Below, piece after piece: positions 15,076 to 20,258 of a stretch of 64,000 nt of DNA. Source of the DNA: Candidatus Rokuibacteriota bacterium. GTDB lineage: Bacteria; Methylomirabilota; Methylomirabilia; Rokubacteriales; CSP1-6. Where the stretch lies: contig QHSX01000038.1 of NCBI GenBank assembly GCA_003221695.1, positions 124,001 to 188,000 on the forward strand. The letters run 5' to 3'. The notes under the pieces were generated by a model. The model made no database searches and was not told the DNA's origin. It was given only the letters and a program-made list of their open reading frames with translations. Position 1 is the first letter of the stretch; each line of letters begins with the position of its first letter. Made by a program: the position numbers and the translations under genes.

Positions 15076-15786
15076 ATGAGACGGCTCACCGGGGTCCTGG
15101 CGGTTATCGCTCTCATGCTCGGCGCGACTGGTCAGGCGAACGCGGTCCTCATGCTGACTGGGTCGGGTGGGGCGGTCCTTTATCAAGGTCCGGCCGACTA
15201 CGTGACGACCTCCGGAACTTTCACCGGCGCCGAGAGCACCATCATTGGCATGGCTTTGACTCTGGGTCCGAATCCCTTGAATGCGACTTACTCGAATTCT
15301 GACGTGGATTTCATTAGCAACGGTAAAGGGGGCTTTGCTTGGTCTGAGCGCATCCTGAATTCTTCCGGCCAGGCATGGAATGGGTTAACCGTGCAGATCA
15401 ACGGAGGTGTCCCTAATTTCGGCGACTTCGTCGTGACTCCGATTTCGCCTATTCGGGTCGCGATCAGCAACCTTCCGCCCGTCCCACTTACGAACCCCGT
15501 GATCACGCAGACAAGCCTTGCGGGTCACCCTGATGTAACGGTTTCCCTTGACGAGCTGACGGCGACGTTCACCTTCGCGACCCCAGTGGCGGCCGGATCC
15601 ACAGTCGAAATCTACATGCCCATCGAGAATCTTCCTCTCGACTCGAGCTTCGACTTGACTGAAACTCCGATCCCTGCTGCGGCTGCGGCGGTGCCCGAAC
15701 CGGGCACCCTCCTCCTTCTTGGTGCTGGCCTTGCGGGGCTCGGCGTGGGACGGAAGCGGTGGCTCACGGGCGCTGACGTCGTCTAG
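15076..15786 (+). CDS. PEP-CTERM sorting-domain protein
   Basis: A 236-residue secreted protein with a strong ribosome site (AAGGAGGAG). It has an N-terminal signal peptide (MRRLTGVLAVIALMLGATG, cleavage near ANA), a beta-rich Asn/Thr/Ser-rich body without cysteines, and a C-terminal sorting tag: VPEPGTLLLLGAGLAGLG followed by the basic RKRW. Such tags are read by an exosortase, which links the protein to the cell surface or an exopolysaccharide matrix. No exosortase gene is in the window. Base composition by eye is clearly less GC-rich than the neighbours, and codon choice is more relaxed, which fits a fast-evolving or acquired surface protein. Confidence 0.92.
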   Translation: MRRLTGVLAVIALMLGATGQANAVLMLTGSGGAVLYQGPADYVTTSGTFTGAESTIIGMALTLGPNPLNATYSNSDVDFISNGKGGFAWSERILNSSGQAWNGLTVQINGGVPNFGDFVVTPISPIRVAISNLPPVPLTNPVITQTSLAGHPDVTVSLDELTATFTFATPVAAGSTVEIYMPIENLPLDSSFDLTETPIPAAAAAVPEPGTLLLLGAGLAGLGVGRKRWLTGADVV

Positions 15787-15827: not shown

Positions 15828-15857
15828 TTGACAATATCGATCGACAAAGTGTAGTAG
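15828..15857 (+). promoter_or_regulatory. promoter/operator of the cysH operon (shared sulfur element, copy 1)
   Basis: TTGACAATATCGATCGACAA occupies 15828-15847, followed by a weak -10-like stretch (TGTAGT or TAGTAG, 15850-15857). TTGACA is a perfect -35 box. The element also holds a direct repeat GACAAT/GACAAA 13 bases apart and the palindrome TCGATCGA, so a regulator site probably overlaps the promoter. The same element recurs at 18292 before the sulfite reductase operon with one difference in 20. Confidence 0.6.
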
Positions 15858-15868
15858 GAAGACTACCA

Positions 15869-15904
15869 ATGCGCTGTTCATGCATCGGGAGGTGTCCGGG
15901 CTAG
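15869..15904 (+). CDS. cysteine-rich leader peptide of the sulfate assimilation operon
   Basis: An 11-codon frame, ATG to TAG, encoding MRCSCIGRCPG, with cysteine at codons 3, 5 and 9 (TGT, TGC, TGT). AGGAAG lies seven bases before the ATG. It sits between the shared sulfur element and a strong intrinsic terminator in front of the APS reductase gene. By analogy with amino-acid attenuators, and with the cysteine-rich leader peptides described in mycobacteria, ribosomes would stall here when cysteinyl-tRNA is scarce and prevent the terminator from forming. The start codon lies very close to the predicted transcription start, so the mapped promoter may need revision. Confidence 0.6.
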   Translation: MRCSCIGRCPG

Positions 15905-15945
15905 GGTCGCAGCGCAAGGCGAAGTCGAAGTAGCAGAAAGACAAG

Positions 15946-15995
15946 AGCCGAGATGGTCGAGCCGTCGAGAGACGGCGGACCGCCTCGGCTTTTTT
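15946..15995 (+). terminator. intrinsic terminator in the cysH leader, probable attenuator
   Basis: A long hairpin: AGCCGAG pairs with CTCGGCT, GGTC with GACC and GCCGTC with GACGGC around a GAGA tetraloop, with only one- or two-base internal bulges, followed by TTTTTT at 15990-15995. It ends 34 bases before the cysH start and lies downstream of the cysH promoter element, so it would stop cysH transcription unless prevented. It could also simply end the PEP-CTERM transcript. Confidence 0.8.
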
Positions 15996-16029
15996 GTTGC
16001 GGGTGAATGCAGAGGGGGGGACGGACGAG

Positions 16030-16743
16030 ATGAGCGAGATCCGGGAGTCGATGAGCGCCGAGGAATTGCTCGCGGCGGCGCTGGCGGAGTTCCATCCGCG
16101 AATCGCCCTGGCTGCGAGCTTCGGAGCGGAGGACGTCGTGATCGTCGACATGCTGATGCGGCTCGAGCCGCGCGCGCGAATCTTCACGCTCGACACCGGT
16201 CGGCTGCCCGCGGAGACCTACGCGCTGGTCGACGCGATCCGTGACCGCTACGCCTGTCGAATCGAGGTGTATTTCCCGGACGCGCCGGCGGTCGAGGCCA
16301 TGGTGAGCGAGCACGGCGTCAACCTCTTCTACTCGAGCGTCGAGCACCGCAAGCTGTGCTGCGGGGTGCGGAAGGTCGAGCCGCTGGGACGAGCGCTCGA
16401 TGGCCTCGCCGCCTGGATCACGGGGCTCCGGCGCGACCAGGCGGTGACGCGGACCGACGTGGCGAAGGTCGAAGTGGACCGCGCCCACGGGTCCATCTTG
16501 AAGCTCAACCCGCTCGCCGACTGGAGCTGGGAGGACGTCTGGGGCTACATCCACGCGCACGACGTCCCCTACAACGCGCTTCACGATCAGGGCTACCCGA
16601 GCATCGGCTGTACGCCGTGCACCCGCGCCGTGAAGCCCGGGGAGGACCAGCGCGCCGGGCGGTGGTGGTGGGAGACCCCCGAGACGAAGGAGTGTGGTCT
16701 GCACCTTCCGACCGCGCCTGAAAGCGGCAAGCGCGGTGCGTAG
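16030..16743 (+). CDS. cysH: adenylyl-sulfate (APS) reductase
   Basis: A 237-residue protein; the ATG at 16030 follows a G-rich ribosome site (GAGGGGGGG). It has the PAPS/APS reductase fold (LAASFGAEDVVIVDML, FTLDTGRLPAETY) and the iron-sulfur cysteines that mark APS reductases: Cys110-Cys111 (CCGVRKVEPL) and Cys194/Cys197 (GCTPCTRAV), plus the catalytic cysteine Cys222 in KECGLH. It reduces adenylyl sulfate to sulfite with thioredoxin electrons. No APS kinase gene is present nearby, as expected for the direct APS route. First structural gene of an operon with an unknown gene and ATP sulfurylase. Confidence 0.95.
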   Translation: MSEIRESMSAEELLAAALAEFHPRIALAASFGAEDVVIVDMLMRLEPRARIFTLDTGRLPAETYALVDAIRDRYACRIEVYFPDAPAVEAMVSEHGVNLFYSSVEHRKLCCGVRKVEPLGRALDGLAAWITGLRRDQAVTRTDVAKVEVDRAHGSILKLNPLADWSWEDVWGYIHAHDVPYNALHDQGYPSIGCTPCTRAVKPGEDQRAGRWWWETPETKECGLHLPTAPESGKRGA

Positions 16744-16744
16744 C

Positions 16745-17113
16745 GTGGCGCGGCGGCTGGCCGGGGTGCTCTCGCCCTCGCGCGCCGCGGGCGCCGACGC
16801 GCCTCCGGAGCTCGAGGTTCGATTGCTCGTCGCCCGCGACGCGCCTGCGCCGTCCGACGCGGTGGACGCGATCCTGGCACTGCTCCGTCGCGCCGGCCGG
16901 ATGCGGCTCGACGCTCTCGTGCGCGATGGAGCCGAAATGCTGTACCGGAGCGAGCTCGCGCGTGGGGGCGCGAATGTGGATCTCGGATTCTTCGGCCCTG
17001 GCGTCTTCGTGCCCGCGATCTGCGGCGCCCTCAACGCCGGCCACGGACGTCTGTGGGAGATCGCCGCGCCGGTGGATGTCGCCCACACGGTCAGCGCGGG
17101 AGCCGCCCGATGA
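16745..17113 (+). CDS. uncharacterised protein between cysH and sat
   Basis: About 122 residues starting with a GTG one base after the cysH stop; other in-frame GTGs lie up to 51 bases upstream inside cysH. The stop overlaps the ATG of the ATP sulfurylase gene (ATGA), which supports translational coupling and a real gene. Sequence: a basic Ala-rich N-terminus, then ELEVRLLVARD, SDAVDAILALLRRAGRMRLD and GFFGPGVFVPAICGALNAGHG. No metal or nucleotide motif is obvious and no family was recognised. Its place suggests a role in sulfate activation or reduction, but that rests on context alone. Confidence 0.6.
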   Translation: MARRLAGVLSPSRAAGADAPPELEVRLLVARDAPAPSDAVDAILALLRRAGRMRLDALVRDGAEMLYRSELARGGANVDLGFFGPGVFVPAICGALNAGHGRLWEIAAPVDVAHTVSAGAAR

Positions 17114-18270
17114 CGACCGCGGCGCCGCACGGCGGAGGGTCACTGGTCAATCGCGAAGTCGACGCAGCCTCCCGCGCCGAGGCGCTGGGCCAGTGTCGCG
17201 AGATGCCGGCGCTCTACGTGGACCCCCGGGCCGCCTCCGACGTCGAGTTGCTCGCCACCGGGGCGCTGACGCCACTCGAGGGCTTCATGCACCAGCGCGA
17301 CTACCGCGCCGTCCTCGAGCGCATGCGCCTGGAGGATGGCGCGCTGTGGACGCTTCCCATCACGCTGACCGTGAGTCGCCAGCACGCGGGGCGGCTCAAG
17401 GAAGGGCGACCGGTGGCGCTCGTCGCAGAGGGCGGCCGGCCGATCGGCGTCCTGCACCTCGACGAGCGATACGCGTGGGATCCGCGCGAGGAGGCGCGGC
17501 TCGTCTACGGCACAGAGGATCCGGCACACCCGGGCGTGGCCTACCTGCTCGGGCGCGGGCCGGTCGCCCTCGGCGGACGCGTCGACCTGATCGAGCGCCC
17601 GGCGCTGCCCGGGTTCGAGCGCTATCGCCTTTCACCGAGGGAAACACGGGCGCGCTTCCACGAGGTCGGTTGGAGGACCGTGGTCGGCTTCCAGACGCGG
17701 AACCCGATCCACCGGTCGCACGAGTACATCCAGAAGTGCGCCCTCGAGCTGGTGGACGGGCTCCTGATCCACCCGCTCGTCGGCGAGACGAAGTCCGACG
17801 ATACGCCCGCCGACGTCCGCCTCGGCTGCTACGAGGCGTTGGTCGAGCACTATTTTCCGCGAGAGCGGGTGCTCCTGTCGGTCTTTCCCGGGGCGATGCG
17901 CTACGCCGGGCCGCGCGAGGCGGTCTTCCACGCGCTCGTGAGGAAAAACTACGGCTGTACCCATTTCATCGTGGGCCGGGACGCGGCGGGCGTCGGCTCC
18001 TACTACGCCTCGTACGCCGCGCACGAGCTCTTACGCTCCTTCAGCGACGGTGAGCTCGGCATCGAGCCGCTGCTCTTCACGGAGACGTTCTACTGCAGGC
18101 GCTGCGGTACCGTCGCGTCGGGCAGGACATGCCCGCACGCGGACGGCGACCGCCTCGTCCTGTCTGGAAGTCGCGTCCGGGAGCTCCTGCGCCGGGGTGA
18201 GGCCCTGCCGGGCGAGTTCACCCGTCCTGAGGTGTCGGCGGTTCTCACCGACTGGGCCAGGGGCTCCTAG
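17110..18270 (+). CDS. sat: sulfate adenylyltransferase (ATP sulfurylase)
   Basis: A 386-residue homologue of single-chain Sat enzymes. The nucleotide-binding motif QTRNPIHRSHE (195-205) is complete. The second conserved motif, normally GRDHAG, reads GRDAAG at 289-294, so its histidine is replaced by Ala292. A zinc-type cluster CRRC-CPH (Cys329, Cys332, Cys341) sits near the C-terminus as in other bacterial Sat proteins. It joins sulfate and ATP to give APS for CysH. The start overlaps the upstream gene; an in-frame ATG 57 bases earlier is less likely. The operon ends here, with a new promoter element 21 bases on. Confidence 0.94.
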   Translation: MTTAAPHGGGSLVNREVDAASRAEALGQCREMPALYVDPRAASDVELLATGALTPLEGFMHQRDYRAVLERMRLEDGALWTLPITLTVSRQHAGRLKEGRPVALVAEGGRPIGVLHLDERYAWDPREEARLVYGTEDPAHPGVAYLLGRGPVALGGRVDLIERPALPGFERYRLSPRETRARFHEVGWRTVVGFQTRNPIHRSHEYIQKCALELVDGLLIHPLVGETKSDDTPADVRLGCYEALVEHYFPRERVLLSVFPGAMRYAGPREAVFHALVRKNYGCTHFIVGRDAAGVGSYYASYAAHELLRSFSDGELGIEPLLFTETFYCRRCGTVASGRTCPHADGDRLVLSGSRVRELLRRGEALPGEFTRPEVSAVLTDWARGS

Positions 18271-18291: not shown

Positions 18292-18321
18292 TTGACAATC
18301 TCGATCGACAATAGGTAGATT
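18292..18321 (+). promoter_or_regulatory. promoter/operator of the sulfite reductase operon (shared sulfur element, copy 2)
   Basis: TTGACAATCTCGATCGACAA at 18292-18311 matches the element before cysH in 19 of 20 bases. It is followed at the same spacing by GTAG and a -10-like TAGATT (18316-18321, spacer 18). Here the direct repeat GACAAT...GACAAT is exact. Two such elements in front of two sulfur operons and nowhere else noticed suggest a common regulator. Confidence 0.65.
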
Positions 18322-18327
18322 CTGCTC

Positions 18328-18358
18328 ATGACTGAGGCGGCTAATGACTGAGGCGGCT
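18328..18358 (+). repeat. tandem duplication of the translation start of the zinc-ribbon gene
   Basis: ATGACTGAGGCGGCT occurs twice, separated by a single A. The second copy opens the real gene at 18344. The first copy is out of frame and gives only a seven-codon frame (MTEAAND, stop at 18349-18351) whose end overlaps the real start. It could be neutral slippage or a tiny upstream frame that modulates translation. Confidence 0.8.
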
Positions 18359-18532
18359 GAGGAGTCGATCCGGCGCTGCCCCGTGTGCCGAGCCAAGGTT
18401 GTCGTGAAGCTGCCGCAGGAGGTTGTCATCCACAACGCCATCCTCAAGGTCGATGCGCCCACCGGCCACGTGAGCGCGAAGTGCTCTCGCTGCAAGGCCT
18501 GGGTGGAAGTGCCGCTCCGGTACCTCGGATGA
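18344..18532 (+). CDS. zinc-ribbon miniprotein heading the sulfite reductase operon
   Basis: A 62-residue protein. Two cysteine pairs, CPVC near residue 12 and CSRC near residue 47, separated by a beta-rich stretch (KVVVKLPQEVVIHNAILKVDAP), form a zinc ribbon. It ends 28 bases before the sulfite reductase start and would be the first product of this operon. No named family recognised. Such small ribbons can bind nucleic acid, act as a metal or redox sensor, or chaperone an enzyme; in this place a link to siroheme/iron-sulfur enzyme supply or to control of the operon is possible but unproven. Confidence 0.75.
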   Translation: MTEAAEESIRRCPVCRAKVVVKLPQEVVIHNAILKVDAPTGHVSAKCSRCKAWVEVPLRYLG

Positions 18533-18560
18533 TGGAGCTTTCCGCTTCCGGAGGAACGTG

Positions 18561-20258
18561 ATGAGCGAGGCGGTCAAGGAGACGAAGGCCCAGCGCGTCG
18601 AGCGGCTCAAGCGTGAGCTGAACCCGTGGGAAGCGTACGCCGAGATCCAGCGCTTCGCGCGCGAGGGCTGGGACGCGATCCCCGCGGAGTGGCTCGGGAC
18701 CTACTTCCGCTGGTGGGGCATCTACACGCAGGGTGACGGTGTCGGCGCGGTCGGCGGCAAGGGTGGTGAGGGCAAGGCGACGCGCCACTTCATGGTCCGC
18801 ATCCGGATCCCGAACGGTCAGCTGCAGGCTCACCAGCTTCGCACGATCGCCGGGCTCGCCGAGCGCTACGCGCGCGGAATCGCCGACGTCACGGTCCGCC
18901 AGAACATCCAGCTCCACTGGGTGACGCTCGAGAACCTGCCCGACGTCTTCCAGACGCTGTGGCGCAGCGGGATCACGACACAGGGCACGTGCGGCGACGT
19001 CACGCGCAACGTCACCGGCTGCCCGCTCGCCGGCGTGGACGCCGACGAGATCGTGGACGCCTCGCCGGTCGTCCACGCGGCGACGCGCATGGTCAACGGC
19101 AACCCGGCCTTCTATAACCTGCCGCGCAAGTACAAGGTCTCGATCACCGGCTGCCGGGTATGGTGCTCGTACCCGGAGGTCAACGACGTCGGGCTGACGG
19201 CGCTCCACCACCCGGCGACGGGCGAGATCGGCTTCGCCGTGCGCGTCGGCGGCGGGCTCTCGACCGATCCGCGCCTCGCCACGCGACTCGACGCCTTCGT
19301 GCGCTGGCACGAGGCGCTGCCGGTCCTCCGGGCGATCTCGGAGATCTTCCGCGACTCGGACGTGCTGCGGCAGAGCCGCGAGAAGGCCCGGCTCAAGTTC
19401 CTCTTCCTCCAGCACGGCTGGACCGCCGAGAAGTTCCTCGCGGCGATCGAGGACCGGCTTGGCCGGGCCCTCGAGCACGGCGTGCCCGACGACCCGCCCG
19501 AGGACGTCTACCGCGACCACGTGGGGCTCCATCGCCAGAAGCAGGAGGGGCTGGTCTACGCGGGCGTCGCGGTGCTGCGCGGTCGGCTGACTCCCGCCGA
19601 GATGCGCGCGGCTGCGGACCTGGCGGAGCGCTACGGGACCGGCGAAATCAGGACGACCAACATGCAGAACCTCCTGATCCCGAACGTCCAACGCGACCGC
19701 GCGGGCGCCCTCGCGCACGCGCTCGAGGCCGCCGGGCTTCGGCTCGACGCTTCGCCCTTCTGGCGCGGGACGATCGCATGCACGGGCTCGGAATTCTGCA
19801 AGCTCGCCCTCACGGAGACGAAGGGGTTCGCGCGCGCCCTCGTGGAGGAGCTGGAGACGCGGCTGCCGGGGTTCGACGAGCACGTGAAGGTCCACGTGAC
19901 GGGGTGCCCGAACAGCTGCGGCCAGCACTGGATCGCCGACATCGGCATCGAGGGCAAGAAGGTCAAGGTGGACGGCGCGCTCGTGGATGCCTACTACTTT
20001 TGCGTCGGCGGCGCCCTCGGCCGCCACTCGGCCACGGCCCGGCCGATCGGCCTCCGCGTCCCCGCTGCGGACGTCGGCGCGGCGATCGAGCGGCTGCTCC
20101 GCGCGTTCCTCGCCGAGCGTCTCGCCGGGGAGAACTTCCGGGAATTCTGCGCGCGTCACACCGACGAGGAGCTCCGCGCGCTGCTCGCCGGCGAGCTGGT
20201 CGACGCGGTGGAGCGTGACGTTCCGGCCGGTCAGCTGCCCCACGGCGTGGACGGCTGA
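18561..20258 (+). CDS. sir: ferredoxin-type sulfite (or nitrite) reductase
   Basis: A 565-residue siroheme enzyme; the ATG at 18561 has GGAGG six bases upstream (a GTG directly before it is possible). Two ferredoxin-like/siroheme-binding repeats are present, with [15 protein letters not shown] and [16 protein letters not shown], and the cofactor cysteines Cys407, Cys413 (CTGSEFC) and Cys449, Cys453 (CPNSCG) that hold the 4Fe-4S cluster coupled to siroheme. Sequence alone does not separate nitrite from sulfite reductase, but APS reductase and ATP sulfurylase next door and no nitrate gene favour reduction of sulfite to sulfide with ferredoxin electrons in the cytoplasm. Confidence 0.92.

Follow-up and report, generated by a model that had tools for sequence, protein, structure and literature searches.

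Does the short cysteine-rich frame ahead of cysH sense cysteine, or does the regulatory part of this leader lie elsewhere? Control of assimilatory sulfur genes is commonly attributed to repressors, activators, T-boxes, or SAM riboswitches. For the leader of cysH in the 64,000-nucleotide stretch of DNA analyzed here (the window), the first-pass annotation had proposed an attenuator, in which cysteine shortage would stall ribosomes on the Cys codons of the frame and prevent termination. A limited, non-exhaustive literature search found no paper on such a leader element in this phylum, which, judging by the properties of the relatives, is probably Methylomirabilota ("Rokubacteria"). The features of the leader and of the genes downstream are as follows.

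15828–15847, + strand: 20-bp dyad TTGACAATATCGATCGACAA with the −35 hexamer; putative shared cys operator/promoter (27-site consensus)
15850–15857, + strand: putative −10 region TGTAGTAG, weak, placed by its spacing from the dyad in relatives
15869–15904, + strand: 11-codon frame MRCSCIGRCPG, ATG at 15869 to TAG at 15904, with Cys at codons 3, 5, and 9 (3/11)
15870–15916, + strand: P1 hairpin, in which 15870–15877 (the start of the frame) pairs with 15909–15916
15918–15949, + strand: conserved box GGC-GAA-GUC-(13 nt)-GAC-AAGA-GCC, a candidate antiterminator hairpin with a pattern shared by 21 of 23 aligned elements
15946–15995, + strand: intrinsic terminator with GAGA loop and T6, from folding, covariation, and the match to model R2
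16030–16743, + strand: cysH, phosphoadenylyl/adenylyl-sulfate reductase (Pfam PF01507, NCBIfam NF002537, TIGR02055)
17053–18270, + strand: sat, ATP sulfurylase (TIGR00339/NF003166), with its true start probably near 17110
18292–18311, + strand: second dyad copy TTGACAATCTCGATCGACAA, preceding the zinc-ribbon gene and cysI
18344–18532, + strand: 62-aa zinc-ribbon protein (C-x2-C ... C-x2-C), in the window without a box or terminator after it
18558–20258, + strand: nitrite/sulfite reductase of the NirA/CysI type (domain/family models)

Promoter and terminator of the cysH leader

The frame with three Cys codons, the promoter-like element, the 7-base stem, and the terminator before cysH, all named by the first-pass annotation, are present at the positions listed above. 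The −35 hexamer TTGACA (15828–15833) lies inside the dyad, and relatives carry TATTTT at the −10 position. With up to two mismatches allowed, the dyad has only two sites in the genome; in relatives, the motif precedes cysI, sat, cysK, or a zinc-ribbon ORF, and a reversed control pattern gives far fewer matches. The first start codon typically lies 34–49 nt past the dyad start and the −10 at +24, which suggests that the mRNAs of this regulon are leaderless or nearly so; a transcription start can likewise be predicted for the cysH leader. A simple consensus scan called neither a promoter nor a terminator in the window leader, where it is uninformative because of the poor −10 hexamer and the interrupted stem. 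The dyad is probably a repressor operator. Similar to the sites of Rrf2 cysteine regulators such as CymR (family: PMC5015018), it is operator-like and lies over the −35 of cys genes, and one Rrf2-family gene (L069, G061; Pfam E 3.4e-11) is preceded by a dyad-like site with two mismatches, a hint to the family of the regulator alone. At some cys operons, the dyad stands without a box or terminator (G018, G022 sat, and the window's own cysI).

The terminator stem pairs GCCGAG (15947–15952) with CTCGGC (15984–15989), GGTC (15955–15958) with GACC (15978–15981), and GCCGTC (15961–15966) with GACGGC (15971–15976), followed by T6 (15990–15995). Predicted folding is more stable than that of shuffles, with z −3.60 for the whole leader and z −4.15 for the terminator part. 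Among 21 copies, five stem pairs show two-sided changes, with 23 such cells against 7.8 expected; none of 500 shuffles reaches 23, and sliding controls fall to at most six cells, in an alignment whose fitting to the structure favors the covariation result. The U-tracts are broken in many relatives, e.g., TTTTACGCTT. By sequence, an intrinsic terminator lies between the leader ORF and the structural gene, and the claim of an attenuator before cysH holds at this level: the terminator stands 3′ of the shared cys promoter-operator, is kept in a relative (G080), and has a stem that covaries in the 21 copies.

In the window, acs is separated from the cysH leader by a PEP-CTERM gene (15076–15786), while in G080 acs is directly upstream of the leader; the gene, absent at the equivalent place in G080, was thus gained or lost after the two lineages split. 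The first-pass annotation had raised the possibility that the terminator only ends the PEP-CTERM mRNA. This assignment was rejected, since G080 has an equal leader before cysH and no PEP-CTERM gene. A pairing of AGGCGAAGUC with the second terminator arm GACCGCCU, spotted by eye, was dropped because it is imperfect in G080.

A conserved box predicted to share a strand with the terminator

The general form of the box, which lies downstream of the frame, is GGC-GAA(A)-GUC-loop-GAC-ANAA-GCC. A pattern of GGC, 3–5 mostly purine nucleotides, GUC, 4–14 nt, GAC, 4–5 nt (ANAA-like), and GCC is found in 21 of 23 copies; one copy has GUU for GUC, and the G041 and G039 copies deviate from the pattern. The strict form occurs in 15 of the 23, with no other match in 1.5 Mb of locus sequence, much of it redundant. 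Searched against Rfam for known riboswitches, T-boxes, and other families, the window had no match at the gathering score, and the loci of eight relatives had none at E values up to 3.

The box is predicted to fold as two 3-bp helices around a purine-rich internal loop. The growing RNA is predicted to adopt this hairpin in the window and most relatives; taken as far as the first terminator arm, it does so in 11 of 12 copies, at −4.5 to −7.5 kcal/mol for the copies folded alone. The hairpin also forms in predicted folds without an ORF. In the structural prediction, the strand GCC 15947–15949 belongs both to the box and to the base of the terminator, so that the box and the complete terminator would be mutually exclusive. 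Predicted folding makes the box far weaker than the terminator, and it would therefore need a stabilizer; antitermination by proteins that stabilize a hairpin overlapping a terminator is an established principle (PMC3369936). The box helices are nearly invariant, helix 1 having no two-sided change, and because they hardly vary, the antiterminator itself shows no covariation. The first-pass annotation had found no convincing antiterminator by eye. This stands insofar as none involving the reading frame was found, whereas the box 3′ of the frame is a better candidate.

Distribution across the phylum

We built the covariance model R2 from 13 training copies (dyad promoter, zinc-ribbon ORF, box, terminator, cysI type), leaving out the window and G080. 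In 95 genomes of the phylum, it gave 21 sense-strand matches of at least 36.8 bits, located in 20 genomes. The search recovers the window at 39.2 bits (15913–15998; E 2.3e-8) and G080 at 38.5 bits. It adds G031, G037, G034, G039, and G078, the last from another family, as well as a second copy in G006, which precedes cysH. Because the 13 training copies were picked for adjacency to the dyad, genomic context is independent for the eight added copies only. The strong matches precede cysI or cysH, with the exception of G031, where the match lies behind a zinc-ribbon ORF and ahead of an ATP-grasp gene. Two weaker matches also fit, in G049 (33.3 bits, a third family, cysI) and G005 (29.9 bits, with a peroxiredoxin downstream); the remaining weaker matches inspected resemble generic terminators or coding sequence. 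In cysH loci of other phyla, only generic terminator-like matches were found. Two contigs labeled Elusimicrobia (L039) and Nitrososphaeria (L040) carry cysH genes 76% and 67% identical to that of the window and are possibly misbinned relatives.

The usual order in relatives is dyad promoter, apparently leaderless zinc-ribbon ORF of about 60 aa, box, terminator, and cysI. A full-leader search of 57 family genomes found G080 alone beyond short fragments, with 74% identity over 15916–16100 and a locus composed of promoter, 11-codon frame, P1, box, terminator, and cysH. A whole-leader model gave a weak match in G085 before cysI and, under laxer filters, one in G010 as well. In the G006 cysH copy, the box starts 52 nt past the dyad start and about 15 nt past the predicted transcription start.

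At the protein level, the zinc-ribbon ORF is conserved with 38–82% identity. It is found in 24 of the 95 genomes, mostly adjoining cysI-type genes, and scores below the cut-off of every Pfam and NCBIfam model. At the start of the window gene, a direct repeat of ATGACTGAGGCGGCT, 16 bp apart (18328–18359), creates an out-of-frame 7-codon ORF before the true start. The gene is short or broken in G041 (L155), G085 (L145), and G081 (L195). G041 retains a 28-codon in-frame remnant with three Cys, and behind it the box region and terminator persist. In G020 (L189), only an apparent second terminator half CCCGGCTTCGGTTTC remains behind the gene, and the box is gone.

The cysteine codons and rival explanations

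The ATG of the frame lies 41 nt past the dyad start, within the range of the regulon's apparently leaderless first ORFs. When the leader was shuffled 3000 times with dinucleotides preserved, a short ORF with at least three Cys appeared in 0.33% of the shuffles, and in 0.1% when a start at the 5′ end was required. The core of P1 is a 7-bp hairpin of TGCGCTG (15870–15876) with CAGCGCA (15910–15916). P1 is retained in G080, where three pairs are changed on both sides and one is broken; these two sequences modestly support P1. The equivalent frame of G080, MLHSCPGELPS, also has 11 codons at the same place, with a single Cys (1/11) at codon 5, the sole one common with the window. An origin of the frame as a decayed zinc-ribbon start was rejected, as the alignments are not significant (p 0.07 for the window, 0.21 for G080), though both fall at one spot.

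If the Cys codons act as a sensor, a ribosome stalled at them would open P1 and allow the box to form, whereas a ribosome that finishes at the stop codon, which lies 13 nt ahead of the box, would hinder the box and allow termination, and the zinc-ribbon ORF would play this part in relatives. The improbability of three Cys in 11 codons by chance, the position of the start, the retention of P1, a stop-to-box distance that is often 9–17 nt (0–38 overall), and the three Cys in the G041 remnant all agree with this reading. However, the same Cys-rich frame is largely absent from relatives, where most copies follow the zinc-ribbon gene, an outcome that the first-pass annotation itself had counted against its proposal. 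With one Cys codon in G080, none in the first ORF of G085, no Cys ORF in G039, no ORF at all in the G006 cysH copy, and a zinc ribbon whose conservation as a protein suffices to explain its Cys codons, the box and terminator appear independent of such codons, and a conserved cysteine-codon sensor is not borne out. Likewise, enrichment in product codons does not extend across orthologous leaders (Cys accounts for 3/11 codons in the window and 1/11 in G080, and the G006 cysH copy lacks an ORF). Moreover, folding with the frame masked, as if covered by a ribosome, yielded no stable alternative to the terminator. We consider ribosome-mediated cysteine attenuation unlikely as the general mechanism; the Cys codons are at most a local addition, and attenuation through them is possible in that capacity.

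An unregulated partial terminator, which would simply reduce expression of the gene behind it compared with the zinc-ribbon gene and would have been copied in front of cysH, would account for the typical place between the zinc-ribbon gene and cysI, for the weakness of the box compared with the terminator, and for the variable U-tracts. It leaves the conserved box 5′ of the terminator unexplained, and the window, G080, and G006 cysH leaders encode at most 11 codons upstream; we find it rather improbable. The zinc-ribbon protein itself might instead be an RNA-binding antiterminator, or pro-terminator, acting on the adjoining box and in trans on cysH. The protein occurs in 17 of the 20 strong-box genomes, and its gene is not linked to the cysH box in the window, G080, or G006. 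However, the association of box and protein is expected from linkage alone, several genomes (G018, G020, G059, G091) have the protein without the box, and G039, G041, and G085 have the box with no intact zinc-ribbon gene found in drafts that are 88–95% complete, making such a role very improbable.

A proposed model of box-dependent attenuation

Our best explanation, to which we give about even chances, is that the cysH leader is one instance of a transcription attenuator conserved in sulfate/sulfite-assimilation operons of this phylum, with a box antiterminator under a shared cys operator, working independently of Cys codons. Transcription would begin at the promoter embedded in the shared cys dyad. 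In the leader RNA, the box could fold as a hairpin whose last strand, GCC, doubles as the terminator base by the U-tract. By default, the far more stable terminator would prevail, and transcription would halt before cysH. Stabilization of the box hairpin by a protein, a ligand, or leader translation would let the polymerase pass. The promoter dyad, the box, the terminator, their conservation, and their genomic context are evident from the sequence; we infer termination, antitermination, and sulfur or cysteine status as the signal. It is a more tentative, rather doubtful proposal that the box defines a new class of antiterminator RNA that responds to sulfur, binds a protein or a metabolite, and controls sulfite and sulfate reduction genes across the phylum.

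Among known systems, trp/his-type attenuators also combine a short leader ORF, a hairpin over this ORF, and a terminator before a biosynthetic gene. In contrast, the putative regulatory codons of the cysH leader are unconserved, one copy has the box and terminator without an ORF, and the frame takes part in no antiterminator found. The operon nasF serves nitrate/nitrite assimilation, and the cysI of box operons belongs to the NirA family, a point of likeness to the ANTAR leader of nasF. In ANTAR leaders (NasR/nasF, EutV; PMC3369936), an antiterminator strand is likewise shared with the terminator; however, an ANTAR target comprises two stem-loops that carry A1 and G4 in their loops, while the box has a single stem, and its loops are 4–14 nt long and of differing sequence, e.g., ACAA in G006. 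Similar to the RAT/CAT elements of LicT/BglG (PMC3369936), the box is a short stem with an internal loop, mutually exclusive with the terminator, but it differs in its sequence, its single internal loop (RAT has two), its cys genes, and the absence of a known protein. Cysteine-responsive leaderless ORFs are described in mycobacteria (PMC9031893, PMC4633059), and contiguous Cys codons of polycysteine leaderless ORFs act there on translation of downstream genes (Canestrari et al. 2020, as recounted in PMC9031893 and PMC13236596). They share with the cysH leader a short Cys-containing ORF, apparently leaderless and first in a cysteine-metabolism transcript. In contrast, the Cys codons of the cysH leader are scattered, non-contiguous, and unconserved, and a box and terminator follow.

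As this case illustrates, a Cys-rich frame may be conspicuous and yet incidental to the regulatory part of a leader that is conserved. If the proposed mechanism is true, this leader element, with its unfamiliar antiterminator-like box, would provide a compact, well-delimited RNA for binding assays and add a layer of post-initiation control in a phylum for which metagenomes are almost the only source.
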